Below, piece after piece: positions 32,461 through 64,000 of a stretch of DNA of 64,000 nt. Source of the DNA: Antitrichia curtipendula. Taxonomy: Eukaryota; Streptophyta; Bryopsida; Hypnales; Leucodontaceae. How positions within the stretch are numbered: the stretch's first letter is position 1; each line of letters begins with the position of its first letter. Made by a program: the position numbers and the translations under genes. The stretch lies in the NCBI GenBank assembly GCA_951230915.1, contig OX579640.1, positions 25,502,981 through 25,566,980 on the forward strand. Reading direction: 5' to 3'. The notes under the pieces were generated by a model that worked only from the letters and a program-made list of their open reading frames with translations, did not search any database and was not told the origin of the DNA.

Positions 32461-32479
32461 TTCTTTGGGTTTTAGCAAA

Positions 32480-34625: not shown

Positions 34626-34959
34626 AGGCTTCTAGAAAATGGCGTCCGAATCAACAAAAGATGAACATTTTCTTATTGATTTGAATACAGCATTGACTGC
34701 TTTCACATATAGATGTGAAATATGTAGATGTTGATGAAGAACGCATCATATTTTTGTTGATTTGGGTGTGACATATTGGTTGGCAAATGGAACTAATTTT
34801 TATTGATCCAAGAACATATCAATCTCACTTGGGTATCAAACAAGGCTTCTCCAGATATCAAACCGGTCATCCTTAAGTATCAAACATGATCATACGCAAA
34901 GTCTGTCTTCTGTTGTTAGGTACTTTGCATTTCAAGATTACGCCATCTTTGATTCTTGC

Positions 34960-42200: not shown

Positions 42201-42399
42201 TCACTAGTGTGGGCATTTAACAACCAAGAGTTAACAATTTGTTGTTTGACACCGTTCAAGATAATAGAAATTGAGTAGTTTTTGGTTAGGTAGTGTCCGC
42301 GTCAACTTGACCGAGGCCACTCCAAGTTGTTATCCACTAAAGCAATTTTCCGTTCATTTTTTGTTAAATTGGTCATCAATTTTCTACTAGTGTATAGAT

Positions 42400-43560
42400 A
42401 GAATGCACGGGAATGTGCTGCATTCAGTATAAACTGTTATACCCGTTAACAAAGGAAGTACACACACGCAACTATCCTTTGTTAATCTGGATCGACTTCC
42501 TCTAATCTGGAGATTTTAGAGCCTAGCTTCACTGATTTTTTGTCTTCTTTCCAACGGTACCAGTTTCAAAGTCTAATTCATTATAGATCAAAAGTTATGG
42601 CCCCTTTTAGGCCGCAAATTTCAATGCGGGCTCATGGTTTGGAGACTCTTATCTCCATCAATTCTTGCCCGATTTGAGAAATTTCTGAGCCTATCTTGAC
42701 TGATTTTTTCTTCTCTTTCCAACGGTACAAGTCTTAATCCCTAAGCACCTCGGCGCCTCAAATATGGCTCTTCAACAATGAAGGACAAATAACTTTGACT
42801 ATTATAGTCTTTTCAATTATATGGTCAAAGGACGTGTACTTTTCCCTTAAGCTCCGAGCACGCTTCACCCTACCAATTAGTACGGTGAATTCATATAGAT
42901 ATCTTTTAAGTGATCATTACATAGGAAAGAGTTGAGAAGGGTCTCAATTTTAGCAAACACAGCTTGGGCGCTCAGGGATTAAGGTCTGATTCCTTGCCAA
43001 TCAAAAGTTAGAGGGGGTTGAAGGTCGCTCTTTTTGCGGGTCACAAGAACTTCAGCGACTCATATCTTCATCAACCATTGCCTTATTTGAGAAATTTTGT
43101 GTCTATCTTGATCGCTTTTTCCTCTTCTTTCCAATGGTATAAGTCTCGAGGTCTAATTCCTTGCCAATCAAAAATTATAACCCTTTTTAGGCCACGATTT
43201 AGGGTTTAGGGAGCTAGTTTGACAACCCCTATCTTCATGAGTTCTTTCCCAAATTGAGAAATTTTTGAATTTGTTTTGACTGATTTCTCCTCTTCTTTCC
43301 AACGGTACAAATTTCAAAGTCTAATTCGTTACCATTCAAAAGTTATGACTGTTTTTAGGCCATGGTTATCACTACAGATAGCCGGTTGGACAACTTGTAT
43401 CTCAAGCAGTTCTTGCCCGATTCGACAAATTTAGGTGTGCATCTTCACTGATTTCTCTTCCTCTGTCCAGTGGTATAAAGCGTGGCCTTGAATTCCTCGA
43501 TTGTCGAAAATGATTGCGAATTTAGAATTCTAGGGTTTCATGGCTTTAGGCAACTCGAGG
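42400..43560 (+). repeat. ~170-bp degenerate tandem array
   Basis: Units carry TCTTCTTTCCAACGGTAC, GTCTAATTC and CAAAAGTTATGGCC. CTTTCCA anchors lie near 42547, 42715, 43125 and 43295, at steps of about 170 bp or multiples of it. Unrelated sequence of about 200 bp (near 42.74-42.96 kb) interrupts it. The family also occurs at 31.9-32.5 kb. Confidence 0.75.
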
Positions 43561-43909
43561 GTTGAGGACCCCATTCCTTTTGGTTTTAGTGAAAGACACT
43601 GAAACTAGGAATACGGGGGCTCTTCCATTGATGAAAGGAAGCATCATTATCCCATTACACCTTATTTTGGGTTAAAAACCTTTGCTACACAAAGGTATAA
43701 GATGGATTCAAGTAAGGAGGGGGTGTAGGGAGTCAACACGGGTACACCATTCCACCCTTTTTTGTGCCATTACTTTTGATCGGTAAGGAATTAGACTTCA
43801 AGACTTGTACCACTGGCAAAAGGAAGAGAAATCAATCCGGATAGGTTCAAATACCCGGACATGTCCAAGTCCACTTTCCAAATACACCATCACACTCGTC
43901 GATCATGGG

Positions 43910-45280
43910 GAGTAACACCGGTGTAGCTTGACAACCAAGTACACCGGTACACTATCCCATCCCAAGAAGTTACATCGGTGTAGCCCGGCCTCCAAGGACA
44001 CCATTACATTGCCTTGTTCCAAAGAGCCACGCCGGCATAGCCCGGCCTCCGGGTACACCATTACGCTTTTTGATCCCATTGAAATATACTAACTAGTGTA
44101 ACCTAGCCCGTAGATACAACATTACACTTCTTGGTCCTAGGGACTTACACCACTATAGCCTAGCCTTTGAGTACACTGTTACACCGCCCCATTTCCAAAA
44201 GTTACACCGGTGTAGCTTGACCCCCGGGTTCACCATTACACTACCCTAAATCCGGCAAATTACACCGATGTAATCTAGTCCGTGGATACACCATTACGCT
44301 TCTCGGTCCTAGGGAGTTACACCAATACAGCCTCGCCTCCACGTACACCATTACATCGCCTCGTTTCAAAGAGTTACACCTGTGTAGCTGGACCCTCGAG
44401 TACACCATTACACTTCTCAATCCTAGCAAATTACACCGGTGTAACCTAGCCCGTGGATATGCCATCACGTTTCTTGGTCCTAGGGAGTTATGTCGATGTA
44501 TCCTAGCCTCCAGATACACCGTTACACCGTCCCCTCTCAAAGAGTTACACCGGTATAGCTTGACCCCTGGTACACCATTACACTTCTCGATCCCGGCGAA
44601 TTACACCGATGTAATCTAACCCATGGATACACCGTCACGGTTCTTGGTTCTAGGGAGTTACACCAATATAGCCTCGCCTTGAGGTACGCCGTTACATTGC
44701 CCTGTTTCAAAGAGTTACACCCGTGTAGCTTGATCCCCGAGTACACCATTACACTTCTCCATCCCAGCAAATTACACCAGTGTAATCTAGCCCGTGGATA
44801 CAGCGTCACGCTTCTTGGTCCTAGGGAGTTACGCCGATGTACCCTAGCCTCTAGATACACCGTTACATTGCCCCATCTCAAAGAGTTACACTTGTGTAGC
44901 TTGACCCTCGGGTACACCATTACACTTCTCGGTCCAAGAAAGTTATAACATTGTAGCTCGGCCCCTAGGTACACCATTGTAGTACCCCATCCCAAGAAGT
45001 TACGCCAGTGTAGCTCGGCCTTCGAGTACACCATTATGCTTCTTGATCTCCGGGAATTTCACCGGTGTAATTTGGCCTGTAGATACACCACACGCTTTTG
45101 GTCCTAAAGAGTTACACCAGTGTAGCCAGGCCTCCAAGTACACCTTCATGCTACCTTGTTTGAATGAATTACACTGGTGTACTTCAACCCTGGTGTACAC
45201 CATTACACTTATTGGTCCCATCGAATTACACCAAAGTAGCCCGGTCTATAGCTAAGTACACCATCACATTTTTCTAAAGT
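43910..45280. repeat. 57-bp satellite arranged as a 171-bp three-unit higher-order repeat
   Basis: Every unit of about 57 bp has a TTACACC..TGTA core, followed by TACACCATTACAC and a spacer. Units fall into three types told apart by their middle: GCCTCGCCTCC, GCTTGACCCC and TCTAGCCCGTGG. The types recur in fixed order, with first-type anchors at 44316, 44487, 44657 and 44828 (steps of 171, 170 and 171 bp). The core is the palindrome ACACCGGTGT in its best copies (for example 44204-44213). A 165-codon minus-strand frame across it (MVYPRARLHRCNS...) exists because 57 is divisible by three. I do not regard it as a gene. Confidence 0.95.
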
Positions 45281-45304
45281 ATAAGGTTTGTCCGGTAACA
45301 AGCA

Positions 45305-45910
45305 CGGTCCGGCCATCGAGAGATCTCTCGATAGAAATCATAAAAATGAAAGTAATGTAGCGAGAATGTTCATCGGGAGATCTCCCAATAGAAATAGATA
45401 ATTTTCAGCAACAAGCGGGTCATTGGTTCAAGGTCCCTCAACAGAAATGATGATAAAACCAAGAATAATGTTGCAAGAATGTTCATTGGGAGATCTGCCA
45501 ATAGAAATAAAATACATTCGGTAACAACCGTGGCTCAATCATCAAGAGACCTCCCGATGGAAACGACACAAGATAGCATACCGCGGCAAGAATGTTCATT
45601 GGGAGATCTCTAGATAGAAATTATACAATTGAGAGTAATAACATAGTAAAAATGTTCATCGGGAGAGCTCCCGGCAGAAATAAAAATAATTTGGTAACAA
45701 CCACGGCCCGGTCATTAAGAGATCTCCCAATAGAAATGATTCAAAAGCGATGTAATGCGACAAGAATGATCATCCGGAGATCTTCCAATAGAAATGATAC
45801 AAGGCACAATGCGGTGAGAATGTTCATTAGGAGTTCTCTTGATAGAAATCATAAAATTGAGAGTAACTTAGCAAAAATGTTCATTGGGAGAGCTCCTAAC
45901 GGAAATAGAA
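45305..45910. repeat. ~57-bp array with a palindromic core
   Basis: About eleven units, each with a version of CATCGGGAGATCTCCCAATA followed by GAAAT, at near 45314, 45371, 45486, 45541, 45597, 45658, 45714, 45771, 45825 and 45880. The best copies are perfect palindromes (ATCGAGAGATCTCTCGAT at 45315). The same core is the heart of the 62-63-bp array at 33.8-34.6 kb. Confidence 0.9.
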
Positions 45911-45944
45911 GAAGTTCAATAACAACCACCGTAGCGCAGCCTCC

Positions 45945-46575
45945 ACGTACATGGCCCCCCAAACTTCTAAAAACAAAAAAAACATAAAATGAATTGAATC
46001 CAAAAGAGAGGGCAAGCTTGGCCCCCTAAACTTCAAAAACAAAAAAAATATCAAACAAATTGAACCCAAAGGAGCGGGAGCTCGCTACAAACTTATAAAA
46101 AAAATATATAATATGAACGGAATCCAAAAGAGAGGGCAAGTTCGGCCCCCCAAAGCTTCTTAAAACAAAAGAAATATCAAATGAATTGAATCCAAAAGAG
46201 AGGGCAAGCTTGGTCCCCCAAACTTCTAAAAATAAAAGAAATTTAAAATCAATTGAACCCAAAAGAGAAGGCAAGCTTAGCCCCCTAAACTTCCGGACAC
46301 AAAAAAATATAAAATGAATTGAACCCAAAGGAGCGGGAGCTTGCTGGAACTTGTAGAATAAAATATATAAAATGAATTGAACACAAACATCTAAAAACAA
46401 AAAAATATAAGATGAATTGATTGCAAAAAAGAGGGCGAGCTTGGCTCTCCAAACTTCTAAAAGCAAAAAAAATATCAAATGAATTGAACCCAAAAGAGAG
46501 GACAAGATTGGCCCTCTAAACTTCTAAAAACAAAAGAAATATGAAATGAATTGAATCCAAAAGAGACAAAATAAG
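45945..46575. repeat. ~67-bp tandem array
   Basis: Units contain ATGAATTGAACCCAAAAGAG, GGCAAGCTTGGCCCCC and AACTTCTAAAAACAAAA. The GCAAGCTT-type anchors at 46137, 46204 and 46271, and again at 46435 and 46502, are 67 bp apart. The 159-codon minus-strand frame over it is repetitive and not a real gene. Confidence 0.9.
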
Positions 46576-46654
46576 ACAATGAACTCTTCAAGCAACCATC
46601 TAAGGTTGTGTTGCCTTTTTGAAGAAGTTGAACTCTTTCTCACTAGCAGCGCCA

Positions 46655-46790
46655 AGTCATGACTATCACGCTAATGCTCTACGGGGTTTGAACCCGGACC
46701 ATGTAGTCGTAATACTTGGTCCTTCTCCAACCAACCTCTAAACTCATGATTCGGTGACTCTCCACCACTACGCTTCACATTTATCACCCG
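46655..46790 (-). mobile_element. Possible tRNA-like (SINE) head
   Basis: On the minus strand, GCGTAGTGGTGG resembles an A box and GGTCCGGGTTCAAACCCC resembles a B box, about 65 bases apart. That spacing is long, and the arms do not fold into a complete cloverleaf. A degenerate SINE head is possible. I do not call a tRNA gene. Confidence 0.25.
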
Positions 46791-46870
46791 TACTCATCCA
46801 ACAACCTCAATCTTGGTTACTTTTATCTAGTTACTGGTACAAAAGTGTCTATTCTCGAAAGGGAAGAGTA

Positions 46871-47150
46871 TTTTTTTTTTTTTTTTATTGACACAAGTAA
46901 AGTGACCTATACCGCAATAAAAAAGGAAACAAGGACCCAGCCGCAAACGGCCCGGGGAGAGCAAAAAGACACAAACCAGACACGGGCACAATTACAGCTA
47001 AAACGCCAACAGGCAGGGCGTAAACCGCCCCGCCAAGGCGTAAGACACCTATGGCAGTTGGAAGACAAGGGCAGAGTAGTTTTGCATCAATGGCCCTTGA
47101 TCCAGTGGACACGAGCCCATTGTCATTATGAACGGACACTTTATTCATGC
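46871..47150 (-). mobile_element. 3' end of a LINE-like retroelement with poly(A) tail
   Basis: Read on the minus strand, a GC-rich segment (GGCGGGGCGGTTTACGCC..., GTGTCTGGTTTGTG...) ends in a short AT-rich stretch and 16 A residues (T run 46871-46886). This is the usual appearance of a 5'-truncated non-LTR retrotransposon tail. It has no reverse transcriptase, and I found no target-site duplication. The open frame across it is short and of doubtful meaning. Confidence 0.45.
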
Positions 47151-47501
47151 CGGCCTTTTATCCAAAAGACCAGAGTTTTTATCTATCTTTATCTATCTTG
47201 AACTCCTTCAAACAATTTTTGATAAATTGTAGGGATCACAATATTGAATTTGGCATTTAACCCAAGATACTTCATATTTTTGAGAAATCAATTTTGAAAA
47301 TTAGCGGCATGTCAATTTAATTTTAGTAGAGTCCTCCGTCTTTTTTTTAAACATCCAAAAATTGAAGCCAAATTTAAAATCTATTTTAGGACTGAAATAA
47401 AATAACTCGAAAAAAAAACTATTTTTTTTTTAAATAGAAAAAAAAACTATTTTTTTTTTAAATAGAAAAAAAAGGAAGAAAAAGATAAACAACATGTTGT
47501 T

Positions 47502-47951
47502 TTATTTTTTTAATTGACCACTGAAAAAATTCAAGAACACGTGAATTGGAAATTGGGCCTTAGAATCCAACTCGAGGGCTTTACATTGAGTAGGCCCGAA
47601 TGGAACAATTGCGGCCGGATTAAAGGCCGGATTGATGGTAAATCCAACCGGCCTTCCATCTGGCCCGAGGCTCGATACAAACCACCCCTTAGATCCCCAT
47701 CCTGCCCGACCGTGCACGGAGCAGTGCACGTAGCCGCCAGCCGACTTTGTATATTTATGGTTTAGGATGTAAGAACAAATTGCTGACCAATTGGGTCCAC
47801 GTATCCAAACCCATAATGTCAGGGCGTATCTTACTGTGGGAATTGGAAAAGATTGAAGGACAGAGAACAGTTCAGGCGACTCGTGTGCGTGAAGCTTTGG
47901 GGCCTCCATAGCGTCGTAAACATTCTTTGCCGGGCCGCTTGTGGCCGGCAT
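47502..47951 (-). CDS. Hypothetical open frame, 149 residues
   Basis: An uninterrupted frame starts with ATG at 47951 (MPATSGPAKNVYDAMEAPK) and ends at 47502 in an AT-rich tract. It is GC-richer than the DNA on either side, and its first half reads like protein. I recognise no domain. The C-terminal residues come from low-complexity sequence, so the true 3' end may be spliced or absent. It may be a captured fragment or a first exon. Confidence 0.25.
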   Translation of the reverse strand: MPATSGPAKNVYDAMEAPKLHAHESPELFSVLQSFPIPTVRYALTLWVWIRGPNWSAICSYILNHKYTKSAGGYVHCSVHGRAGWGSKGWFVSSLGPDGRPVGFTINPAFNPAAIVPFGPTQCKALELDSKAQFPIHVFLNFFSGQLKK

Positions 47952-49464
47952 CTTTGTTCCTTTCTCTCTACAATGAATTTCCTTTTGCTTACTTCAAAAA
48001 ATAAAAAATAAAAAATAAAAAAATTGCATCCACGTGCGCCTTGGAGTATTTGAAATTATGAATTCTAGGGAGTTTAGAAGTAAGCTTGCAATGCAACTAA
48101 ATCCAATTTTGGAATAACAGCAATGTTAATAAGGCAAGCCCAATCCAAATTACATTGCCCGTAGAGTCCCTTGGTGCGTGGTCTTCTAACCCGGATTCCT
48201 TCACCCTATGACCCGTAGAGTTTGTAAGCCTTCCATATTAGCTTTCAGTCTTCCGCGAGGGTATGGGTTTACCCCTAGTTTACATGTAGGTTTTTATCCA
48301 GCCTACAAAAGATCAGTAGTTGCTACCCAATCGCCTACGCCGAATAGCGAAATTAGGTTGTCCTTCACTAGTATCTTGATATGCCACACTGTTTAAAAAT
48401 CTATTGTTATTGTATAATTAAGAACTACCTTTAGATTAGTTGTAGGTTTAATTGGAACTTGTGGACTTCCACGTGCACACATAGAAGTATTTGTAGAAGG
48501 GTTTAGGATTGACTTTGATAGCTTGTATAGTAAGTTTCTCAAGATAAGGTAGCCTAATTGCAAAGCCAACCTAATTTCAGAGTTAAGGGTAGGATGGGCC
48601 TTCAAACCGGACTTGACTACCCGATTTATCCTCACCGTGTAGATTGTAAAATTTCAAGCAGATACACGAAGGCGGATACATCTAAAATCACACCCGAGGA
48701 AGTAACCTTCAAACGCCATCCATAGTTTGCATTCATTTCTAGAATGAGTTACGTACCTATTCCATTTGTAGTGAGTTGTCCGAAATTGCTATATGCAGTA
48801 TATTGCCTCTAAAGACATAGCTTGGTCCTTGAGGGATTAATAACTTTGGCATATTGTATAATCCAAATGCGGCGTTCTTTGGTGCATAGGAAAGTACCTT
48901 CACTTGCCCGCAACACTATATGAAAATCCGAATAGCCTAATCAACGGTAAATAGGCGCGGACCTACTAATTTGTGGCGCTTTTGGATGTGCCCACTTTAC
49001 GCATGTTTGGAAATGTTATTTATAAAAACGTTACTTTGGCATATAGTCTATGATGCAATAATAAGTAGGATAGGATGATGGCAAACAATAACATGTACGT
49101 ATACTTTCCCATCTTTTACATGTATGTCCCATTTTTTAAGAAACATAGCTTCCAACATGGCATCCAAATGACAGCAAGAATTCCAAGTCCATGTCCCCTT
49201 CCAAACTTGAAATTAGGGTCCATCGTGGCTCACACTCTGCATTTTTTTTTCTTCCCATAATGAAGACGGTTTTAGCATATCCTTGGTGACCTCACGGAAG
49301 CCATTGGTTTTGGTTTAGCAACCATTCACAACGTACACGGTATTTGGGATTGTCTCAAATCTTGTATTCGTCTAGGGTGGGCACGCCATATAAGGGAATA
49401 CATCGGGCACATCCAAACACTCTTCCCCCGCTCGTCCCCATCTCGAGTGTTAGCACGCGCCATC
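47952..49464. other. Intergenic, no gene seen
   Basis: Mixed-composition sequence with short frames only. TTTAGG units occur near 48500. Nothing else can be supported. Confidence 0.4.
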
Positions 49465-50394
49465 ATGAACAATATGGTTGGAGAGCATGCGGTCACTAGG
49501 GCCTTCCTTTCGGGTGAGGAGGTGATCTCTCTGGACGACAATTTCGGACCCTTTGAGCCGGTTCTAGAGTTGGAAGGGAAGATGGGGAATCCGGAAGCGA
49601 AGCATGGAACTGACGATTGCATTGGCGGTGAGCTTGTTCCGCATTGTCCAAATGGATTTGAATTCATAGAAGGGGCTAGCTCAATGGACCACATGTCTCC
49701 TCACGCGCATGCGTTCAATAGTGTCTTGTTGTTGGAAGAGAAGCATGATGAGAAGCTCTTATCTGTAGACAGTGTTTTTGGATCTTTTGAATCGGATATG
49801 TTGGTGGAGTTTCCGGAGGAGAAAGAGAACAACAACAAGTACAAAAACGGGCACCCGGTTCAACGTAAGATTGCGCCGTGCACCAAAGATGGGAAGCGTG
49901 CAGAGAATGCAACCACACGCAAGAGGCTTCGACTTCCTAAACCAATTGTGCTATCGCGGTCCAAAGGGAAGATGGACAACCAGGATGAGCATGGCATGAG
50001 GCGGCAAATTCAAGATGAATTAACTCCACGCTTCACGGATTGGAAGGGCGTAGGGGTTGCAACCAGGCCCTACAGCATGGGCATGGTGCAGGACGGCAAA
50101 GAAGTACGAATCGGCAACAAGCATCCAGCAGTGAAGCCCAAGCAAGAGTGCCATCAACCGTATGCATTTCCCTTGCATCCAAAGGTGACTCCATCAGATT
50201 ACAAACTGTCCTACACCAAACTTCTCCACCAAGGTCCTCCGGAGTGTAAGTCAAGGTACGGAAGGCAAGCCCGGCATATTCCGGGAGCATTTGGAAGTGC
50301 ACCATCCCCATGGACCTCCGGCACTTCCGGTGATGTTTGGAGTTCACATAGACCACCATTTGGATCGCAAGTGTTAAAGCCTTTTAATAGGTGA
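49465..50394 (+). CDS. Orphan protein of about 309 residues, unknown function
   Basis: The frame is open from ATG 49465 (MNNMVGEHAV) to TGA at 50392-50394, and its base composition is clearly more balanced than the flanks. It opens slightly upstream, but only with a GTG, so I use the first ATG. The N-terminal half is acidic and holds two related motifs, SLDDNFGPFEPVLELE and SVDSVFGSFESDMLVEF, which look like short binding or activation segments. A basic stretch, TTRKRLRLPKP, follows and could be a nuclear signal. The last third is rich in Pro, Ser, Gly and His and probably disordered. I do not recognise a family. It lies 3.1 kb upstream of the recombinase-helicase gene on the same strand and could be its cargo or a host gene. 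Confidence 0.45.
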   Translation: MNNMVGEHAVTRAFLSGEEVISLDDNFGPFEPVLELEGKMGNPEAKHGTDDCIGGELVPHCPNGFEFIEGASSMDHMSPHAHAFNSVLLLEEKHDEKLLSVDSVFGSFESDMLVEFPEEKENNNKYKNGHPVQRKIAPCTKDGKRAENATTRKRLRLPKPIVLSRSKGKMDNQDEHGMRRQIQDELTPRFTDWKGVGVATRPYSMGMVQDGKEVRIGNKHPAVKPKQECHQPYAFPLHPKVTPSDYKLSYTKLLHQGPPECKSRYGRQARHIPGAFGSAPSPWTSGTSGDVWSSHRPPFGSQVLKPFNR

Positions 50395-53300
50395 TGACTG
50401 AAGAAATTCTAAGTGAGGATGTTCAAAAGGTGCCAGGATAGTGTCCTAGGGTCCCTTCATGTTAGATAGGTACTTTGCATACAAAAGCTCTCGATTAGAC
50501 CATGGAGTCAATTTTTAGAAGGCCAAGGTTTAGCGTTTTGTTTTCGGTGACTTAGGTCACACCACCAATGACGTGCACAATATTGCACAATGGACACTTC
50601 TAGCCTTTTTTTTCCCCTCAAGTTTAATAAATAATCAAACTCCTATGCATGGGTATAAACATTTGCAAGGGCTACCATTTCATTCCTTTTGGCTAACAAC
50701 ATCATTTTGGATCTAGAAAAGCAATGCGTAGTCTTGGACATGGTTGCCAAATGTTCGTGTTAGTGAAGGGTGAGCCTCAACTAAGCTTCAAAAGCGAGTG
50801 ACATCCAGTAATTTCAATGGTGATTTAAAAGATGTGTCGTTAGTTTTTTGTTGGATAAAAATGGTAAAGTTGATGTTCAAAGCTATGTTTTGATCCATCG
50901 CGTAAAAAACAACACGCCGTACAATGCAAAAAGACTAGGCCAAGATTTAGAACCATCGGAGAGCCAAAGAGCCAAGGCGCAAAGCAAAAGCAATTGAGAA
51001 ATGAACAAGCGGCTACTGTGACCTTTCTCCTTTCAACTGATGTGGTTTCCGAGACAAGGAGCAACCACCAAGCACTATGATCATAGCTTGTCAAACTCAT
51101 ACCGCATAGATTTAAGCTAATGAGGTCCGGCTTTAGAGCTTTAGATGCACTCCATGCCTTTGTTTGGGGCGCCCATCTCCCGCATCAAGCAAAGGACTAT
51201 AATAGTGAACGCCAATGTCAAGAGCGCGTAGATCTTCATGGTTTAGTCGGCCATACTTTTTGTCCACTTCACCTATTTTTTTCAAATTGAATTAGAAGTC
51301 ACAGATGAAAAGCGAAGACATCAAAACTTGGCGTAAATTAGGGTTATCATTTACAACCACATGCAATGATTTTCAGTGACTCATTCTGTTTGTAATACGG
51401 GTAGGGAATTCTTAGTTCACTTTTGAGTATTTTTAAAGATGTGTATTCTATATTTTAATTTTGGTATTCACCACCCTTTTTCAAAACCAAACACTTCAAT
51501 TTCTCCATGGTTGTTTTTATTGCAAACGAGGGATTTGCTTTGACATATACAAGATTTAAAATAATTATCTTGAATAGGAGACGTAGGCGTGCACATCATG
51601 TCTATTCTCAAGAATAATGCAATAGTTTTTAGGGTATACCACTCATTGGAGGTTTATTTATGGTAATTTACAAATGGATATTTGTAACGAGAGAGGAAGC
51701 CAAGGATTGCATAACCGGTACTTTGTAAAAACAAGTATGCACGTATGAATATTTATATATGAGTATATAGTACACGGAAGCAATGCAAAGCCATAGATGC
51801 CACATAAATGATAAAAAAATTCTTTTAACTATGTAGAAGCCGGTAAGAGCAAGCAACCACCGGTGAAAGGATGCCTTGCAATATAGTCATACTAGGCGAC
51901 TCTTTACAACCATGGCCCTCTCTGTACGGTAGTAATCCGGTCCCCGTGCGGCATAGAGTGCCGGGCGGTCAACAAAGAAGGCCGGGAATCAAGAAAAAAC
52001 ATGAGGTCTAGGATTGAGGACCGACCGAGTCCAACTCCTATGTTTTCTTCTTTCTTTGAGCCCATCACATCGGGTTCTTCGTGCTCCTATCCCAATAAAA
52101 GGGTGAAAATACTTTTACTAGATCATAGGACATTTACATTTCACAATCTCGTACGCGCACTCTTAATGCTACCAGGCTCCATATTAAGTGTGGGGTACAC
52201 TTTCCAAGGGGGGGGCTAAGCACCATGATACTATTGGAATTGCGTCTTCATGATTATCCCCTTCTAGAAATGCTGTCATACACCCGGTGTAATGAGGCAA
52301 GTAGAGGTGTTTTATGGTTGTCAGGAATCCCAAGTCTGGCAAAGAGAAAGACCCATGTGCATCTTTGTGTACCATTGCCAGTCTTTATTCCTCCACTTGT
52401 GCACCTCCCTCGTCTATTGCACATTCTTCACCTTTAGAGGCCTTGCCATCTTTCACGTGTACTCTTCTAAGTCCTACGGTTCAACAAAGGATAGTAAAAG
52501 AGTGCACTTAGGAGTACAAGGAGTACCTCCTTTATTCGGGTGGAGGACCAGTTGTGGCAGTGGAGTGGACGGTGCAATTCTAAGGGAACAAGTGCTCGTC
52601 GATTTCCTAACAAACAACCAACATCACAACCAGGTTTGCATCAAGCGCGTGTGAATGATATAATTTTGTATTAACAAAAATGTCATAGTTGTTAATGGTG
52701 ATGAAAAACAGGGGTCATTCCATTGCCTATGTTGTAGGGATGCAAACCTGTTTTGTTGATGCTTCAAAATGTCATGCTTTGGTGTTTAACCCCGGTAGTG
52801 AAAGAATCCTTTTCATGAAAACATACCCGGTAGTGCAAAGAGGACATAGAAGACCAACTCCTTGTTGTCGTTTGTCCATTTTTTCAGTTGGAGTTGTTAT
52901 GTATTTGGGCTTCCTACTTTCCGAGGATGGTGGATTACAAGTTTTGATCCTCTCATCAATTAGATGAGTGAGTAGTTGAATAAATTATGAGTTGAAGAGA
53001 GCCTTTGGTTTTGGGTGTAGATGATGTCAAAAATTTCATATGAACCAACTTCAAGTATGCCACCAAAGCGTAGTCCAAGGTGCCATTGCTTTTTTCCAAT
53101 TTTCCCTTCATCTCCTACGCTCCATGTCACTTTGAACTGTAGGCCACAACCTCATGGGGATTGAGGATACAACATCTAGTGGCCGGTATTGCAAAGTCTT
53201 GTTCCTAGTCTACCATTATCCCGGGCGTGAAGTATAGGGCCATAACTCTCAACCAACTCATCAAGCAAGTGCTATCGATTCCCCGTGGGGGTTTTTTCTC

Positions 53301-53524
53301 ACCTTCTTGGCGCATTATTGTCTTCTTCTCAATCGTGATTTGACCATGCATACCATCAACATGATGTAAAATAGCATTATATTTGCTGAATCCATGAGTG
53401 TTGTGTGATGGGTACAAAACTTGAGTGAGTGCCCGCGGTAAGATTGTCATCAACGTAATGGCAGTGCTACATATTCTCTATTCATTTATATGGTCTTGAT
53501 GGTCAAACTCTCCACAATGGTCCG
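50395..53524. other. Intergenic between orphan frame and recombinase-helicase gene
   Basis: No convincing gene. The frames are under 130 codons, overlap on both strands, and have no signature. If the recombinase-helicase gene is a mobile element, its left end should lie in or before this stretch. I could not identify it, as such elements often lack terminal inverted repeats. Confidence 0.4.
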
Positions 53525-56500
53525 ATGTACCCATTCCTACTAATGCAAAATAAAACTCGTTTGGATGATAGAGTGGTTTTGAACAACGAGCCTCCATTCC
53601 AAACAAGCAAGAAAATGGCTTGGCAATGCAAGAAATGTGACGCACCACCATTCCCTACGGAGGGGAAGTTCAAGAATCATCGAAGGATCCATTCGCAACA
53701 ATGCATGGTGAAGTTCCCGGTAGAAGGCCTTGGGGAGCCGCTGGAAAGATGCATACAACGGGACCCAACAACAAACCTATTTGTTTGTACTCGTTGCTTG
53801 AGTTATAAGACCTTGAAAGCCGGAACTCTCCAACAGCATTGCAAAGTCTACAAGGGAGGAGAAGATTTCGATCCTATAATCCTACTGTCGGCAATCCATC
53901 CGCCCGGGCATCCAACTTTTCCAAAGAACAACGAGAGCAGGTCATACCTCTTCGAATTGGGATACTTTGTGAATGAAAAGCTCCACATAGCCATTTGTGT
54001 TGATTGCCTGTAATGGATCCAGGTTGGATCCATATGGACCCACACGTCACGTTGCCATCCAACCCGAGTGCGTAACCAAAGGAATGTAGACACGCAACGA
54101 TTGGCAATGGACATCCAACGCTTTCAACTCGATCAAGGCATGAACAAGCTCAAAGAATACTTGGAAGCTACCAGCACCTTAAAAGATCCTATCGAAGGCC
54201 TCTTGGTGGAGGATGGATACATGTGCACGCTGTGTACCTTTTACACAGCCAAACTTAGCACCTTCAAAAAACACGTCTTCAACCAGCACAAGGAAGTTAG
54301 CCATCCCATCGAACATTGTGGCAAGAGATGCTCCGTGCAAAGGCTTTCTTTAAGTCCACAAGGTAATAGTTGGTTTGGGGTGACCACACCTTTGTGTATC
54401 CCACAAGAGGAAGGCCCACACTGCCTCTTACATGATATTATTACAAAAGCAGCCATGGCACGGGAGGAAGAAGTCCTAGTGGCACCCTACAAGGATCTTA
54501 GGCAATTGCCTATGTTCATAAAGGTGCTACACTGGGATGTTTTTCTAGAAAAGTTGAAAATAGACGTAGCGATTTTGGCTCCACTGTTAACAGCTCAAGA
54601 ACCGGGGGACGTCCGTTTTTTTCCAAATCATCTACAGGAAGCGTGTACCTCGCTAATGACGGATTTTCAATCTACCCTTGCGGCCGCGGAAACCTTGCTG
54701 CGGAGGAAGGTTAGGTCTACAAATCCCACCAATATCTCTCCCAAACCCTTCTCAAGGTTGGAGCAATCGTGCCAAGACTATGTCAAAGAGTTGATACACC
54801 TCCTGCTTGTTTTGCTAAGAGCCCTCGACAATAAGAATGCGGAGGACAACACGGGAGACATCCGATGCATGTTGTTTCCGTTGGAGGAGAAAGTGCAACT
54901 TTCTTTACAACGCTTGTGGAATGGATTGCAAGAGGTGGGTGCAAGTGGACACTTCAGAGGGGATCAATTGGAACAGTCCAAATTGCATTGCGTAGAAGTT
55001 TTAGAAGCCTTGTTTTTCATAACACGGTCATCGCATGCCATCCCGGAGGCATCGCTGTTGGTTTTTAGATTTGTGATTTTTTCATCCGTACAACACCGCT
55101 GCGTATTGACACCTGATGATGTGACCCACCGCGTCTCGAGGATGATGTACTGGTGTCGTTCTCTTATACTACACAAGATTGTTCATCATCCGCTCAACCC
55201 ACAATATGACCCAGTCCAGGTGGAAGCGGAGTTCTTGTTATATGTTTGTGAAGACCAACGAATACCATTTGCAGCAATAATGGAGGTGAAGAGGCTTGTG
55301 AGGGCGGTCACAAAGAATGAGACTCCACTCCCTCAGGTTACATGGGTGGGAGATGCCCAACTCATAGACGGTGTTCATGTGGATATTGCGGACGTGTCAC
55401 GGCTTGTTCGTTGCTCCATCCGAGAACTTCACAAGGAATTAGAAGAGGGACTGCTATTGGGGATGCCCGAATACAATTTGAATAGAGATCGCATACTCCA
55501 CAACAAATTTGGGGGGCTCTTGCATGACAACCTCTCGGACTACAGGAATGGACACTGGTTCATTGGCAATAAGAACAATCTTTGTTTGGGATATACCCTC
55601 GACCTCATTCTACACATTGCTCGCACTCCAAGTTTACACAGCAGGTTCATTGACTCGGTGCAAGGAGAGGGTACCCAAGAAATCATATGGAAGAAGGATG
55701 CATTGAACAAATGGATGTGCCGGGTGGGAAAGTGGCTCCAAAAACTAATGACCATCATACACCTCATTGCAGGCCAACCGGCGCGTGGCGTGGAACTAAT
55801 TGCTTGCTCTACCCGCAACACACCAACTCAAATCCGCGACGTGTACCTTGTGGATGGTCTTGTCATGCTGTTGACCCTTTACGGGAAAGGAGACAGTATA
55901 CGTGGCAGCCAAGTACCCATCGCAAGGTTCCTTTGTAAGGACACCTCTTTTCTCTTGATAAACTATCTCACTTATGTGCGAGAAATGGAGATTGTAGCTT
56001 CGGGAGTCTTGTATGGCCCACCGGAAACAACCTTGTACAATCGCCTCTTGGCGGTCAAGGGAGGTCAGCCAATGTGTAGCCGCGACTTGTCCAATGGAAT
56101 TGCAAGTATCTTCTTGGAGCACCTGAACGTGTACGTGACTCTCAAACCTTGGCGACACATGGCCATCGCATGGATGCACAGGTTCCTAAAATACACAAGT
56201 GTGCTGGAGCTCATCGGCAATGGCGTTATGGACAGGCAAGCCGGCCATTCACAACGCGTGGCTAGTAATTGCTACGCTCGGTCAAACTTTGACCATCCTA
56301 GCATCGGACGTAACGAGTTCCAATTGTACAGGTGGGTATCCATGGAGTGGCATAGACTTTTAGGCCTCCGCACCGATGGAGTCCTTCCCAATGTGAATGC
56401 CATCATGCCAACAATTGGACGTCAAAGCCCAACGGATGAGGTAGGCCGGGAATTCGACCCGGGATTGAGGGTTGGACAATCCGAATTGGTGGCCACCGCA

Positions 56501-58446
56501 ACCACCAAAATCCACCATCATCACCACCACCATGAAGTCAAGGTGGTCCACTGCGAAGGGAACACGGGTATCGATCAGCTATCCTTCACTTGTTCCAAAG
56601 AAGTCCTGTTGGGATTGGCCGCATTAGGACACACCAAGTTCAAGAATCCACAGCAGGCCAAAGCCATGCACCGAATCTTGGAGCGTCGAGAAGATTTGTT
56701 GGTAGTGCTACCCACCGGAGGAGGCAAGACTCTATTGTTCCTCTTGCCTGCAGTGGTGGAACGTGGGCGTTATACCACCGTTGTCATCTGTCCATTTGTG
56801 GCGTTGAGAAACGAGATGGAGCATCGTGTGGCAGAGGCAAACCTTTCCATGCAAGTATACTCGGAACACACGCCCCTCAATGGAGTTGACATCCTGTTGG
56901 TATCCGTGGAGCACTACATGTTGCCAAATTTCCAAACTCACCTGGCATACCTATATGCACAAGATCAACTTGGAAGGATTGTTTTGGATGAGTGCCATGT
57001 GGCATTGAAAGACAACTCATGGCGTCCCGTACTACACGGCATTCAACACGTTCGAAAAGCACCCGTTCAACTCCTCCTCTTATCAGCGACGGTGCCTCCC
57101 AGCCTCGAGGATCCAATGAGGGACTTTTTCAATTCCCGGTTCTCCGTCCTCCGGAGTCCCACGACCCGTACCAACCTCAGGTACGAAGTGAGAAAAGTCC
57201 ACGGGGACCTAGGTGCAAGCCTATTGGCGGTCCTATCATCGGAACCGGTGACGCCAAAGTCCATCATCTTTAGTAGGGGGAAGGACGAAACACGAGAAAT
57301 GGCAGAAATGCTTTGTGCCCGTGGTCTCACCGCCGTGCACTACCACGCAGATTTAGACATGCAGGCTAGGAATGCGGCCCACAACGCGTGGACAAGAGGG
57401 GAAGCGGACATCATGGTGGCAACAGGAACATTCGGCATGGGCATCGACTTGCCTGGGGTTCGTCTGGTGGTGCACTTGAACGAGCCATACTCGATGATCC
57501 ATCTTGCCCAAGAGAGCGGCCGGGGAGGCCGTGATGGATCTTCCGGCAAACACATCATCTTATTGTCACGGTCCATGGGAGCGCAAACCGAGTTGGCGGA
57601 GTATCTTGACGGGACAAAGTGCCGACGTTGGGTGCTCCAAGAGTACATCGACGGTCGAGGATTGGATTGCTTTTCTTCCGGATCGGAACGATGCGACGTC
57701 TGTGAGTCTTTGCTCGGCCACGTCAAATCCAGCCTAACAACGGCCAAGCGGATGGAATCTTCTTCCACCAGCAAATCTAGTGAAAGTCGTTGGAACAAAA
57801 GTCAGTACATGGACTTTGCGTCCACCCCGGAGGATGGAGACACCTCGGGCACGCAAGGGGATTACAATCCGGCAGCAAAGAGGATTTGCATAGGGGATGC
57901 ATTGTTCTTTGAATCAGCCAAGGGGACCCAGGAAAGTCATTCGGATCTATTGTTGATGACATTGACCGTCACGCAATACCTTGCGGGAGTGAAAGACAAG
58001 TGCATCATTTGCACCATGGATGAACACGAGGTGCCGGACTACAAACACAAATTATTCCAGTGCCCACACTTGAAAGGTCTTTGTTTGAAGTGCTTGGGAA
58101 ATGACGGGCATCGAGGTAAGGAGTGCCCAAATAAGGTGCGCTTCGCGGTTTAGGGTGTTATGGATGCGGTTTGCCCAAAAAACTGGGTTCCGAAATAATG
58201 CACCCAGAGACATTCGAGGGGGGTTGCAAATCCAAGGGCAACGACAAGCTGATACCTGCTTGTTGGTACATGTGGAGGCATGCAGCGCGGTTTTACCAGG
58301 CATTTGTCGAGTCGGGTTGTCCACCAAATCTTGAGGATCCACAGTTTGCGGAGTGGCTTGCAGGCGAACACATGAAGTACAAGACAAACGTCCTTGCCTT
58401 GTTCATCTCCTACGTCAGAAACGAGGGACTGTTCATCTCGAAGTAG
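53525..58446 (+). pseudogene. Tyrosine recombinase-RecQ helicase fusion (telomere-linked helicase-like)
   Basis: One frame from ATG 53525 runs to TAA at 54011-54013, then stays open in the same phase to TAG at 58151-58153. A switch of phase near 58150 continues it to TAG at 58444-58446. Order: zinc-finger-like pairs (CKKCDAPPF...HRRIH, CTRCLSYKTL, CTLCTFYTA); a tyrosine-recombinase set (codons counted from 54068): Arg573 in PARGVEL, Lys607, Lys693-x-x-Arg696-His697 in KPWRH, His727 in GHS, and Tyr736 in NCYARS; a His-rich linker; then a RecQ core with LPTGGGKT (881-888), DECH (974-977), LSAT, and QESGRGGRDG (1148-1157). A RecQ-type zinc module (KCRRW...CDVC) and Cys/His knuckles follow, the last (CYGCGLP) in the shifted frame. 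Catalytic residues are intact. It resembles fungal telomere-linked RecQ proteins and probably served a Crypton-like mobile element. Confidence 0.8.
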
Positions 58447-58627
58447 AACACACCCACGTTTTTTTCCAATGGGTTTGGATTTAGGGTTTAGAAAATATAG
58501 CGTTGGCGACCTTGTCAACGGTGCCTCACGGATCCTAAAGAGCTCCCTTTACGCGAAATGTATTTGTCCGGCGTCGCAGATAGGACACTTGCCTCAATTT
58601 GTGTGGAATAGTCCGTAAGAGTAGGAT

Positions 58628-59014
58628 TCAGGCCTCGGGTGGAACATTGTGATGGGCATAGCCACTGTAATCCATGGAAGGGTAAAAAGAAGGGGGCTTA
58701 CGAGTTGAGCATCCAAGTTCTTTCGGCATTACTAGCGGAAAATGTTGAACATCAGGTAGGCAGGGTTCAAGGCGGATATTATCATTTGGAATTTCGGACA
58801 CGGAAATGGGGCAGAGAGGCACCGACTTGACTGGTCCTCCGGGCATGCCGGCATGGCAACCTACGGCAAAACTATTCCACTCGGTTGTGGCCACGGGTCC
58901 TACGGCCTCGCTTTCAAGAAGTTTTTTTTGTGTAGGGGCGTATTCAACCTGAGGGACTTCATTTGAGGGAGGCCAATTTCGAACATGCAGTTCTGAAGGA
59001 GACATGTTGTACAT
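58628..59014 (-). CDS. Hypothetical open frame, 128 residues
   Basis: An open minus-strand frame from the first ATG at 59014 (MYNMSPSELHVRNW) to 58628. It is Pro-rich, of balanced composition, and shares the GC level of the neighbouring helicase gene, unlike the AT-rich DNA further right. I recognise no family. It faces the 3' end of the helicase gene, so it could be a second gene of the same element or chance. Confidence 0.25.
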   Translation of the reverse strand: MYNMSPSELHVRNWPPSNEVPQVEYAPTQKKLLESEAVGPVATTEWNSFAVGCHAGMPGGPVKSVPLCPISVSEIPNDNIRLEPCLPDVQHFPLVMPKELGCSTRKPPSFYPSMDYSGYAHHNVPPEA

Positions 59015-59408
59015 GCCATTTTGAACATCTTGCAATTTTGAACACGCAACCGTTATACCTACTAGATTGTTGGCTTTGGACAATGGACAAATTGAGGTCT
59101 AAGAAACATTGCGGCAGTGATGTTCTTGGCCATGATTATTCAATTGTGTCCTTTGCACGCACTACCATCCCCTACTTTTTCATGGGCTTCAAGCCAAAAG
59201 TTCTATTTTGAGGCAACCTGGCACTCAATCGCCTTAAATAGGCTTGAGGATTCTAATGGAGTCAGATTTGTTGTAGACACTCCGGCGCATTGTTTTTTCA
59301 TTGAAATTGGCACGTAGGTGCTCTTCTTTGAAGTCTCTAATTGGCTATCGGCTGTGCAAGATGATCAACTTTGGGCAACATACACTCGGCGCTCATAGAT
59401 CAACGAGT

Positions 59409-59780
59409 TTACGCTCCAATCATTGCATTGCATCCTTCATTAGCTTGGTACCACTTGTACGTCAAACGGGCGGCACTATAGAAAAAAGAGCTTACGTCAA
59501 CAGGTCTAAAATGTGCGAAACATAGATACACAATCGAAATTAGAATGAAAACAATCCGGATACAAATAGGAATCCCAAGAAGTACTCGGCTCAGAAGGGC
59601 CAATCGTCCGTGATGAGCGACGCAATGAAAACCCGGTCGGTGTCCTTCAAAGTGAATTCGGGCCGGGTGCTTGCGCAAATCTTTGGCCAAACCATGGATC
59701 AACTTTTTCCACATGGAAGGGCCCATTGGAACGACTGCAAAATGCTCATCTTCGAGAAAGGTCAATATCTTCATCCACAT
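59409..59780 (-). CDS. Possible exon, minus strand
   Basis: The first 60 or so codons read like protein (MGPSMWKKLIHGLAKDLRK, FEGHRPGFHCVAHHGR). The remainder turns hydrophobic and less convincing, so the real exon may end near 59590. No family is recognised. It could belong with one of the neighbouring minus-strand frames in a spliced gene, but I see no compelling splice pair. Confidence 0.2.
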   Translation of the reverse strand: MWMKILTFLEDEHFAVVPMGPSMWKKLIHGLAKDLRKHPARIHFEGHRPGFHCVAHHGRLALLSRVLLGIPICIRIVFILISIVYLCFAHFRPVDVSSFFYSAARLTYKWYQANEGCNAMIGA

Positions 59781-59957
59781 TTTTTACTAACAAATTCAAC
59801 TGTAATATCCTTTGGTTTACCTATTCGAGCACGTGGTCCCAAAATTTAGATTCATTCCTGGCCACGTGCGTATAGTTACGTTGTATTCATGCTGCCAACT
59901 AAGGGCAACTACTTGTAATTGGCAAATATCTTCACCGGCGTAACTAAATCCTAAACC

Positions 59958-60266
59958 CTAAACCACCAAATAGTCAAAAGGCTCTTCCGCTTCGGCTCTT
60001 CGCATCTCGGCTTCATCATACAATATTTCTTCATATTCAGCCTTCCATGTTTCACAATCAAAACATCCGTGATAGAACCAAGAGATCGCAAACAAGTTGT
60101 TATTGTACGCATCGTCCATAGTCTCCGGCCAAAACGCTCGGGTGCTAAGAATACCTTGGTTGTAGTAGTACATGTAATCCATGTGGAGGAAAGCAAGGTG
60201 CTCCAAGTATTGATCATATGCCGCCTCTTCGGCCTCCCATGGATACGGGTCAACTTCTTCACTCAT
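59958..60266 (-). CDS. Small acidic Tyr/Trp-rich protein, 102 residues
   Basis: The frame begins at ATG 60264-60266 (MSEEVDPYPWEAEEAAYDQY) and stops at 59958. The product is strongly acidic, rich in aromatic residues, and probably soluble. No family is recognised. Just past the stop is a run of telomere-like sequence (CCTAAACCCTAAACC read on the plus strand, 59951-59965). The frame is open upstream of the ATG, so a 5' extension or an upstream exon is possible. Confidence 0.35.
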   Translation of the reverse strand: MSEEVDPYPWEAEEAAYDQYLEHLAFLHMDYMYYYNQGILSTRAFWPETMDDAYNNNLFAISWFYHGCFDCETWKAEYEEILYDEAEMRRAEAEEPFDYLVV

Positions 60267-60449
60267 GGGATTGGATACGCCCTTCCGACCCTTCCAACGC
60301 CAACAAACTTGAGAAAACAACCCCAGGGAAAAGAGGCTTCTACAAAATAGAAGCAAGTTAGTGCTAATATGAACCCCGGACCAGGACTATATAAAAGCCA
60401 ACAAACACGAAACGGTTGTTGCGTAGGATTACTGCGTATATCCACTTGG

Positions 60450-62189
60450 GGCCTATAAATTAGCGGCGGCGGCTTGCATGCAGCCTAAACCTTGGGATGA
60501 GGCTGTTGGTTCTAGCCTTCTACAAGGAGAACCCCCGAACGTTGTGGACCAACGTGATCGATTTCTACACGTCTAGCCCTTCGATTATTACATAATCGTA
60601 CCTCGCATTCTTCCTGTTTAGATTTCGATTTTTCTTCCTTTCATTATCTACATATGTTTCGCACGCACTTCATACAATAGATGTTTTATTGTACACTTGA
60701 ATGCGTGCATGTCTTTATTTATTTTATAAAATCGGAGAAGTTGTTTTCCTTAAAAATGATGTTGATATTGTCACTCTGCATTCTCTCATTCATTTAACAT
60801 TTTGAATGATGCACTTATTTTATATTATGTTGAATGCGTGGTAAAAGAAGTCCAAGCCTGAAGATTTAATTGAGATATGAAAATATGAACCTGGAAATCC
60901 TTATTTTTTGTCTAAGAATGAAATTTTTTGAATAAAAAAACCTCTTAAATGAAATGGGAAGGATAGTGGAAGGGGGTCACTGGACTATCTATAAAACATG
61001 CTTCGGATCCACCCAAAACCTTATGCGTAGCTATTACTGCAACTTGCATCTCATAATTATCAAATCTAAGTTCTTGCCCTTTCCCCGACGTCAAACACTC
61101 TCTTTGAAACCGATAGACCTCGCCTCCTCAGAATTCAGCCGTACAATCTCGCTTAAAAATCAGACCGCCTTTAAGAGCCCCTACGCTATACATTTAGAAG
61201 GGAATAAAACAAATCAGACAGATAAGCTCGACACTTGCAAGCCGCCTCACCAAATTCAATCCCGTATTATCTAAAAAAAAAAAGAATCCCACCGCCCGCT
61301 TGCGTTCTGTATCTAATGTTTGAATCTCCCAAGGAGAAAGAATAAAGATTCAAACGACGCGTACCTTCAAGAATGCTAAACATCTCTCTCAAGGTTTCAT
61401 ACTATAAATGTGCACGCTAACGTGCTCCCCAAGCTCAAATGCCGTCCAAACCCTAATAAATGCTCTTCCGCGCTCGGACCCCGGACGAAGTGGGCTAATT
61501 ATCTCACATACGTTGCCTCTTCAATCTGGCAAATGAACAAAATATCCTATGAAACATCTCACAAATCTCAACATGAAGCTGATTCACTTACATCACCGCC
61601 TGCACATGTGAAGTACGTCCCCTGTTAAAAAAAAAGCATTAGAGAGATTGGCTGGAGGAGAAATACATCTCCTTGCAATTGTACGCTTTACCTAGTTCAA
61701 AAATTGTTGCAAAAAGAAACACACGGAAACGACAAAAAATAATTCATGTGCACGCTTTGATTGCAGGCGCGATCCCGTCCATTTGCTTGGCCAAATTCCA
61801 CATCTGGAGCGAGATTTTCACGGTTTATCCTAATCCTCGAAAGTTGACCTTCTGATTTCTTTATCTATAAATTGAAATGAAATACTGATAAATGAATGCA
61901 TCTTCCTCAGCGGAGTCAGCATGCTCTTTCTCTTCTGTTGCTTGAAGACATAGAAAAAAAAATGTCGTCCCCAAAGCAATGTTAAAATACCGGCATGGCA
62001 CAGTTATTGACAATCGAAAAAAGATTTGTCAAGCTATCTATTGTAATTTCAAAGAAAAATATAAATACACATACAACTCATATAATTCTCAATGACGAGG
62101 AAGTATTAAAAAAAAAAAAAAATTTAATTAGTCGGTAGATACATAATCATAGAAAATTATAATAACATAAGGTACTGCAAAAACCTGAA
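60450..62189. other. Intergenic, no gene seen
   Basis: AT-rich sequence with short frames only. The last ~150 bp lie downstream of the oxygenase gene and should contain its 3' untranslated region. A 15-base A run occurs near 62108. Confidence 0.4.
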
Positions 62190-63290
62190 CTAAATCCCTC
62201 CTTTCTCCATGACAATCTGTTGCACTCCGCGTATTCTGTTGTTTGCCCCTTCAATACTGTTTTCTTCTTCTATAGTATTCCAGAGTCTAAAAACTAAACT
62301 GCGACTGATTTGAACTGAAGTACCCAATCGGGTAAATCCCTCTGAACTTTCAGATTTTGAAGACGCGTGAAAATCCTGCTTCCCCCTCCAAATTATTTCT
62401 ACAATACCATTGCACTCATTGAAATCGATGTTGATTTTGTAAGTGGGTATAAGAAATTCTCCACCCTTGCATTTAAAACCATCACTCACGGTAGCTAGAT
62501 CTCCGGTCTTCGCAATCAATGGAGTCCAAATTCCATAGGAATAAGAGTTATAATCTTTATCTTTATGAAATGCATTCGAAAAATCCTGAAAGGTATACGT
62601 CAAGTTACTGGCAAATACCTCTGTTATGGGCTCCAGATCAAGAAATTCGATCTGAGAGAAATCGGGAACTCCGGCTTCAATTGCTTCTTTGGATACCTTA
62701 CGAAAAAGTTCCGAAGCCATATCTTCAAACCGGGTCCGGTATACATTGCTGATCTCAGCCACTTTCTTTTCCTGAGCTTCTTGCCATCTCCGTAAAGCCG
62801 CTTTGGATTTTTGAACCGCGGGAACCGGTACATATCTTCCCAAGGAGAAATCTGCATCGTATCCTCCTCTCCAACCTAACGCGTACATCACGCCATCTCC
62901 ATTTTTGTGACTCGCATTTCCTTTGATCTCGTTACTCGTTTTTGACAGTTCCATCAATGTCTTCATAGATCTCGCTAGATCCTTTCGATCTTTCGCCGTC
63001 ATATCCTTGAAAGGAGAGAACCGTACCATAAGAACTATTTCTTTGGTTTCTCTATCTTGAACCGCAACTCTGCCGTGGTAAATTCGGGTATAATCTTCTG
63101 GAATTCTGTCCATGTGCTCTCCCTTGAAATTTTCAAGTTGTCGTTCTTTTTCATAAATAAAAACCGGATTGGTTCCTCCAATTTGGATTTTCGCGTCTTC
63201 AATGTTTTCTTCTTTTCGCCTCTTTCGAATTTCTTTCTCATAAACATCCTTCGAACCTTTCCCTCTAGAACCTCTTCTTCTCTTTCCCAT
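62190..63290 (-). CDS. TET/JBP-like 2-oxoglutarate/Fe(II)-dependent oxygenase
   Basis: The frame is intact, 366 residues from ATG 63288-63290 (MGKRRRGSRGKGSK). It extends a few codons further upstream, but that part looks like an intron end (TTTTTGGTAGCAG|GAG), so I choose this start. The basic N-terminus and KEIRKRRKEE suggest a nuclear protein. The C-terminal half has the double-stranded beta-helix signature: His242-Lys-Asp244 (FHKDKD), YGIWTPL, a GGEFLIP strand, GIVEIIW, distal His308 (DFHAS) and Arg321 (TRLGTS) for 2-oxoglutarate. This layout is that of TET/JBP-type nucleic-acid base oxygenases, which in fungi and algae are often carried by or near KDZ transposons. The likely substrate is 5-methylcytosine or a related base in DNA, by family only. 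No transposase adjoins it in the window. Confidence 0.7.
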   Translation of the reverse strand: MGKRRRGSRGKGSKDVYEKEIRKRRKEENIEDAKIQIGGTNPVFIYEKERQLENFKGEHMDRIPEDYTRIYHGRVAVQDRETKEIVLMVRFSPFKDMTAKDRKDLARSMKTLMELSKTSNEIKGNASHKNGDGVMYALGWRGGYDADFSLGRYVPVPAVQKSKAALRRWQEAQEKKVAEISNVYRTRFEDMASELFRKVSKEAIEAGVPDFSQIEFLDLEPITEVFASNLTYTFQDFSNAFHKDKDYNSYSYGIWTPLIAKTGDLATVSDGFKCKGGEFLIPTYKINIDFNECNGIVEIIWRGKQDFHASSKSESSEGFTRLGTSVQISRSLVFRLWNTIEEENSIEGANNRIRGVQQIVMEKGGI

Positions 63291-63352
63291 TTTATTAACT
63301 CCTGCTACCAAAAACAAAATAATATTAATCTGCTGAAAATTTCATCTTCAAT

Positions 63353-63967
63353 GAAATCTTTCATTTTCTTTTTTTATGAAGTTAAAATCCTTAAGAAGAA
63401 ATGAATTTGAAAAGTCAGCCCGGAACCTAATTGGTTCTAAGCGCCAAATCAGTTCAATCCATCGAGGATTCTAAACTTCAAAAAAAATAAAATGGACCCC
63501 TCCATAAATCCTATACATTTGAAACATAAAAACTTCAAACATTCCAATTTAAATAAGATTCAAGGTTTAGGTGAATTTGCATACCTTCTTAAAATTGTTC
63601 AAGTTCACAGGAACATCTTGAAAATCCTCCTTTGCAGACTGCAATATCCAAAACATAAATTTCAAAATGGTATTACGCTCGAATATAATTTAATATTCAC
63701 CCAAAACAACCAAACTATGAAAGAAATCTTTCATTTTTTTTCTTTTTTGAAGTTCGAGATTCCTCAAAAAGAAATGAATTCGAAATGTCAGCCCGGAACC
63801 TGATTGGTTCTAGGCGCCAATTCACTTCAATCCATCGAGAATTCTAAACTTCAAAAAAAATGAAAAATGAAATCAATCCTTTAACGGATTCCGTACGTTT
63901 GAAACATTAAAACTTGAAGCAATTGAATTGAAACAGGATTCAAAATTGTAACACATCCGCATACCTT
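63353..63967. repeat. Direct duplication upstream of the oxygenase gene, offset about 371 bp
   Basis: 63353-63592 and 63724-63967 share GAAATCTTTCATTTT, AGTCAGCCCGGAACCT, ATTGGTTCTA and ATCCATCGAG, and end in GCATACCTT. Read with the gene (minus strand), GCATACCTT gives AAG|GTATGC, a plausible donor site. The two copies could therefore be duplicated first exons or promoters. The 5' untranslated intron of the gene would end at about 63302. Confidence 0.65.
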
Positions 63968-64000
63968 TGTAAATCATATGACTTCCTCAAAGCATTCCCA

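Follow-up and report, generated by a model that had tools for sequence, protein, structure and literature searches.

A gene joining a predicted tyrosine recombinase to a RecQ-type helicase within a large subtelomeric repeat unit of a genome with plant-type telomeres

The telomere-linked helicase genes of fungi (tlh1 in S. pombe, UTASa in Ustilago, TLH in Magnaporthe and Fusarium) encode RecQ-type helicases, are multicopy, lie at chromosome ends and have OrsD in their family or repeats. Reports of such genes in fungi go back to the 1990s, among them a 1998 Ustilago paper, and no clear function has been attached to them. A table covering nine genomes of Fusarium oxysporum places them at many chromosome ends (PMC12857005), and OrsD and RecQ repeats are mentioned at Ustilago ends (PMC10532341). 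Here we describe a gene of similar architecture, termed YR-RecQ, in a 64-kb stretch of Antitrichia curtipendula DNA (C8:25502981-25566980; the assembly totals 400 Mb in 303 contigs), hereafter the window, whose own numbering is used for all positions given without a contig. The gene product combines zinc fingers, a predicted tyrosine recombinase (YR) domain and a RecQ-type helicase. It is likened to the fungal proteins by description rather than by comparison with named TLH sequences, and it differs from them in that the telomeres are of plant type and the gene lies in a repeat unit of at least 32 kb. No paper in the literature searched, which excluded most subscription journals and preprints, assigns a tyrosine recombinase to these helicases; this is weak evidence of novelty.

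Starship giant transposons are similar in that a YR gene, the DUF3435 captain, is carried on a large, cargo-bearing unit. The captain sits at the 5' edge of its element, whereas the YR-RecQ gene starts about 21.7 kb inside the unit from its left end, is fused to RecQ and has its long-contig copies near contig ends. Yeast Y' elements are helicase-encoding subtelomeric repeats, and both a near-telomere position and a fixed orientation are found here; the Y' helicase, however, is not known to have a recombinase domain. Crypton DNA transposons provide the example of a eukaryotic, element-borne tyrosine recombinase. Most described Cryptons have terminal direct repeats of 4-6 bp, and the word 'helicase' occurs 0 times in the same paper (PMC3212892). 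In contrast, the recombinase described here is fused to a RecQ helicase, its unit is too large for a compact element and no short terminal direct repeats were found near the gene.

The gene and its domains are arranged as follows.

53525..58446, plus strand: YR-RecQ fusion gene, broken in the window copy by an in-frame stop (54011-54013) and a frame change near 58150
53525..54292, plus strand: C2H2-like and OrsD (DUF3505) zinc-finger region (OrsD at residues 5-75 of the 1361-residue frame by Pfam; Cys/His pattern in the upstream frame)
55685..56302, plus strand: predicted tyrosine recombinase catalytic domain, residues 540-745, with R573 (55784), K607 (55886), R696 (56153), H727 (56246) and Y736 (56273)
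56645..57538, plus strand: RecQ-type superfamily 2 helicase (DEAD and Helicase_C by Pfam, with solved relatives)

Two open frames on the plus strand, 53525-54013 and 54068-58153, are in the same frame with the in-frame stop between them, and the last ~95 C-terminal residues are in a different frame, reaching about 58444. Because both open frames share a frame and the C-terminus continues in another, the whole is one gene, which is broken twice in the window copy. The longer frame, in which all residues are numbered, encodes 1361 residues comprising part of the OrsD domain followed by DEAD and Helicase_C (Pfam E-values of 1.8e-6, 7e-18 and 5e-16), while the upstream frame has only sub-threshold Pfam zinc-finger matches over its Cys/His pattern. 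The domain order of the fusion protein is thus OrsD/C2H2 fingers, YR domain and RecQ-type helicase, and the OrsD plus RecQ architecture of telomere-linked helicases is present. The closest solved relatives are RecQ helicases (E 3.7e-33), the superfamily 2 RecQ motifs are present and the Walker lysine is kept in 125 of the 127 aligned relatives, so that the claim of a RecQ-like helicase with its motifs, made in an earlier, sequence-only reading of the window, holds. Among 34 family members searched at E up to 10, with the window member submitted without its OrsD and DEAD parts, OrsD was matched in 19 and DEAD in 33. A stretch of 6-8 histidines that lies after the recombinase and before the helicase is conserved in the group formed by the window protein and P0001-P0005.

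The evidence for a recombinase domain lies first in residue conservation. The 127 relatives counted comprise 8/8 from one listing and 120 listed of 231 from another, with one shared. By alignment count R573 is kept in 123, K607 in 126, R696 in 124, and H727 and Y736 in all 127; all five occur together, in YR order, in 121. Moreover, in a smaller set of 31 of these relatives plus a further one, L005 (described below), which also served for the trees, only 13 of the 206 positions between residues 540 and 745 are identical in at least 31/32 sequences, and all five residues are among those 13. The same domain is found in Fusarium, Colletotrichum and Botrytis relatives. Alignment counting recovers nearly all relatives, where a strict motif expression missed 31/127 and a GQPxR expression 41/127; as a chance control, the loose motif WR[HQN]...QxxH-8-Y turned up in 1/2000 shuffles of one relative. 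The sequence-only reading had proposed a signature of R, K, KxxRH, GH and Y with nine residues between the last His and the Tyr. The five core residues stand, as does a His-Tyr spacing like that of tyrosine recombinases, although H727 and Y736 are nine positions apart with eight residues between them. The first K of KxxRH (K693), on the other hand, is not conserved, being K in 1, S in 112 and H in 2 of the 127 relatives. This box II position, three residues before the second arginine, is known to vary among tyrosine recombinases.

Structure prediction, the check that had been suggested for residues 500-760, supports the recombinase fold. When the AlphaFold model of the window domain was searched with VIA-align, the closest matches were XerA, Cre and other YR enzymes, and protelomerases stood beside the recombinases among the best; the model of a Fusarium relative likewise ranked YR enzymes first. 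On these models, both the window protein and the Fusarium relative are predicted to have the YR catalytic fold. Foldseek matched the window model to YR proteins at E 0.04-0.12 only, and found no YR protein among the best 50 of 242 matches of the Fusarium model. In the window protein the stretch from OrsD to the helicase is covered by no Pfam model and no integrase model is matched, and none of the 25 of 37 Pfam families listed for the 34 family members is an integrase model. Alignment with hhalign to a four-sequence YR profile (XerC, XerD, lambda Int and Cre) gave a non-significant probability of 0.2%, like that of helicase and N-terminal controls; in it R573 and K607 fell on XerD residues known to be catalytic. 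A scan of a viral library gave phaeovirus proteins and phage integrases among the best matches (lowest E 0.0027).

The gene is one of many. All copy counts are lower bounds because only part of the candidates was scored, 34 of 99 in the gene search and 40 in each DNA slice search. At least 34 gene matches were found, namely the window copy, 32 siblings at 96-99% and one copy at 51% with six stops. The 1672-codon frame is open in 29 of the 32 siblings, two contain stops and one is shortened. Within the window itself tblastn detected no sibling (best E 0.15). Six long contigs hold 14 copies, the window and 51% copies included; each lies at a distance of 17-730 kb from a contig end and is transcribed toward that end. 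The orientation alone has a chance p of about 1e-4, although neighbouring copies are not independent. TTTAGGG repeats cap C1, C2, C5 and C7 on the left and C8 on the right; no telomere is present at the right end of C1 or the left end of C6, both of which break off within the repeat unit. For the contig ends that were readable, the location of the copies at chromosome ends is confirmed. The diverged copy (C1:154966-158931, minus strand) lies near a young one and perhaps represents an older wave of the family.

Flanks and selection were compared in the 20 best-scoring of the 33 siblings, the two with stops and 11 others being left out. All 20 frames are open, and the copies are 99.1-100% identical to one another over 9.7 kb, some pairs being identical, and 98.5-98.7% identical to the window copy. 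Their segregating codons comprise 34 synonymous and 30 replacement changes, against an expectation of 3.48 replacements per synonymous change (p 8e-8 if codons are independent). The YR-RecQ protein is under purifying selection among these copies.

The comparison of flanks defines the repeated entity.

31859..64000, plus strand: subtelomeric repeat unit with a sharp left (centromere-side) end at 31857-31860, its right end lying beyond the window

The 20 siblings and the window are alike through all flank compared, which extends 2.3 kb upstream and 2.5 kb downstream of the gene (9.7-9.9 kb in total). Because the copies share all of this, the entity that multiplied is a repeat at least 32 kb in size and not a gene-sized, Crypton-like element; a Crypton-sized element was accordingly rejected. 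Near the gene only short, chance-like pairs of terminal repeats were found, and a search for plant long terminal repeat primer sites gave 0 matches. In slice searches, positions 1-2 kb occur in full length only in the window itself, and 27.5-28.4 kb in 7 complete copies at 96-100%, a nearly complete one and another three at 86-89%, at sites other than those of the gene. Further right the copies at 96-100%, window included, number 39 (35.1-36.0 kb), 39 (38.9-39.8 kb) and 33 (62.3-63.2 kb), and the gene lies downstream of 26 of the 39 copies of the 38.9-kb slice, in 25 of them at a distance of 14.4-15.2 kb. The slice 31200-32100, which crosses the left end, gave 41 matches. One is the window itself, three cover no more than the left third of the slice, and the other 37 start at or near the end. 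In 36 of these 37 partial matches the start falls at 31,857-31,860 (query 658-661), the other starting at 31,840, which makes the left end sharp, and in 14/14 left-end matches on the six long contigs it is on the centromere side.

On C1 a perfect telomere array lies 207 bp ahead of one left end, and on C7 the telomere joins the unit at about window position 37,013, so that only the unit's first 5 kb remain. Few of 20 samples taken along C262 match the window; one pair, lying right of that contig's two genes, shares a 224-bp match. Three left ends on C6:16722-24035, exactly 3536 bp apart, form a stack of terminal pieces near the contig end, and two on C109 are spaced 526 bp. The left end thus also occurs in short stacks, and it might mark where a smaller repeat begins.

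Taken together, the sibling copies that the sequence-only reading had proposed to look for are present, and so is a location at chromosome ends (at least 33 copies at 96-100%, window included, plus that at 51%; 14/14 within 730 kb of a contig end), and the TTTAGGG telomeres bear out its assignment to a plant-type genome. Its claim of a mobile element is reshaped, the multiplied entity being a large unit near chromosome ends rather than a compact element; integration driven by the protein, or by way of a circular intermediate, stays a conjecture of that reading. The explanation we favour, at even confidence, is a chromosome-end element of at least 32 kb encoding a YR-RecQ protein that promotes the element's own addition to, or exchange between, ends. 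It is likely but unproven that the recombinase spreads the repeat unit, whose right end lies beyond the window and was not found. Every step of the reaction is our inference: either the end of the element or telomere-like DNA would be bound by the zinc fingers; the recombinase, presumably catalytically active and acting on the left end, would cut and rejoin via Tyr736 with a 3'-phosphotyrosine intermediate; and the helicase would either unwind DNA or shift the junction. On this view the unit is joined by its left end to centromere-side DNA, with the remainder pointing to the telomere, and telomere loss would trim units from the right. The size of the unit and the broken window copy weigh against the simple picture drawn by the sequence-only reading, and the first K of KxxRH, which that reading listed, is not conserved.

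If correct, the explanation would tie subtelomere turnover to site-specific recombination and extend telomere-associated elements beyond fungi. The conserved active site of a recombinase in a protein of the telomere-linked RecQ type gives a testable reaction, and dozens of young copies, most of them intact and sharing one precise end, are available in the genome. More tentatively, and with doubt prevailing, the locus could represent a new class of giant eukaryotic mobile element in which a recombinase-helicase fusion targets chromosome ends, with plant-like hosts as well as fungi, a Tet-like, DNA-modifying oxygenase that might counter silencing, and the fungal telomere-linked RecQ genes as relatives. 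HeT-A and other retroelements that add to telomeres would thereby have a DNA-based counterpart.

The strongest rival, to which we give somewhat less credence than to an element moved by its own recombinase, is a Y'-like subtelomeric repeat, in which blocks spread from one chromosome end to another by homologous recombination or break-induced replication and YR-RecQ is kept for end maintenance, not block movement. The large unit without gene-sized boundaries, the 71-212 kb spacing of neighbouring copies on C5 and C6 and the selection on the protein would all fit, and a role in telomere maintenance has been proposed for fungal telomere-linked helicase repeats (PMC10532341). However, a left end sharp to 4 bp in 36/37 matches is more element-like, and homologous exchange needs no conserved recombinase active site.

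It is improbable that the YR-fold domain is instead a type IB topoisomerase-like nicking or DNA-binding module serving the helicase. Type IB topoisomerases have a similar R-K-R-H-Y site, box II has Ser (Lys in the window) instead of His, and Foldseek alone did not match the Fusarium model to YR enzymes; against this, recombinases and protelomerases match best, and no topoisomerase is among the 50 structural matches listed for the window model, an absence that is not an exclusion. It is very improbable that most of the copy number is an artefact of assembly, with one or a few subtelomeres written several times into small contigs, for although 20/34 copies lie outside the six long contigs (15 of their contigs, those of known length, measure 48-294 kb), the other 14 are on long contigs, of which C1, C2, C5, C7 and C8 end in telomere repeats, and differences of up to 0.9% over 9.7 kb separate the compared copies, even if some pairs are identical.

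Scans of IMG/VR and GTDB with the window protein gave no relative, nor did a YR-only scan of IMG/VR. The family query A3 gave 4 and 80 loci, respectively (the best 80 of 179), among which only L005 (1-9784) matched the whole protein, the others being short helicase stretches. L005 is filed as a contig of an Erythrobacter metagenome-assembled genome, and carries the end of an apparent second family member, then an intact 1590-residue relative with all five residues, then 2.57 kb with 1003 G and 218 C in which TTAGGG occurs 10 times against 0 on the other strand. It probably represents fungal subtelomeric DNA that contaminates a bacterial bin and holds two family members in tandem. Its polarity agrees with that found in the window's genome, the gene pointing toward DNA rich in telomere repeats.

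Further features of the window are the following.

62193..63341, minus strand: Tet-like 2-oxoglutarate-Fe(II) oxygenase gene (PF20515, Pfam E 3.6e-49) that travels with the YR-RecQ gene
24000..37000, plus strand: degenerate, strand-biased TTTAGGG-rich tract that spans the left end of the unit
20200-23415, plus strand: two adjacent transposon-like frames, the second with DUF7869 (Pfam)
1261-1454, both orientations: MITE-like (miniature inverted-repeat transposable element) dispersed repeat of ~190 bp, on many contigs by DNA slice search

The oxygenase lies beside 32/34 gene copies, at 8146-8236 bp, and is absent at the copy on C73 and at the 51% copy; C291 has the oxygenase without a listed YR-RecQ gene. 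The enzyme could act on methylated DNA. The tract at 24000-37000 contains 19 TTTAGGG against 2 CCCTAAA, where a first-order Markov model gives an expectation of 2.07 and a largest value of 7 in 200 simulations, and its top three 7-mers are rotations of the telomere unit.
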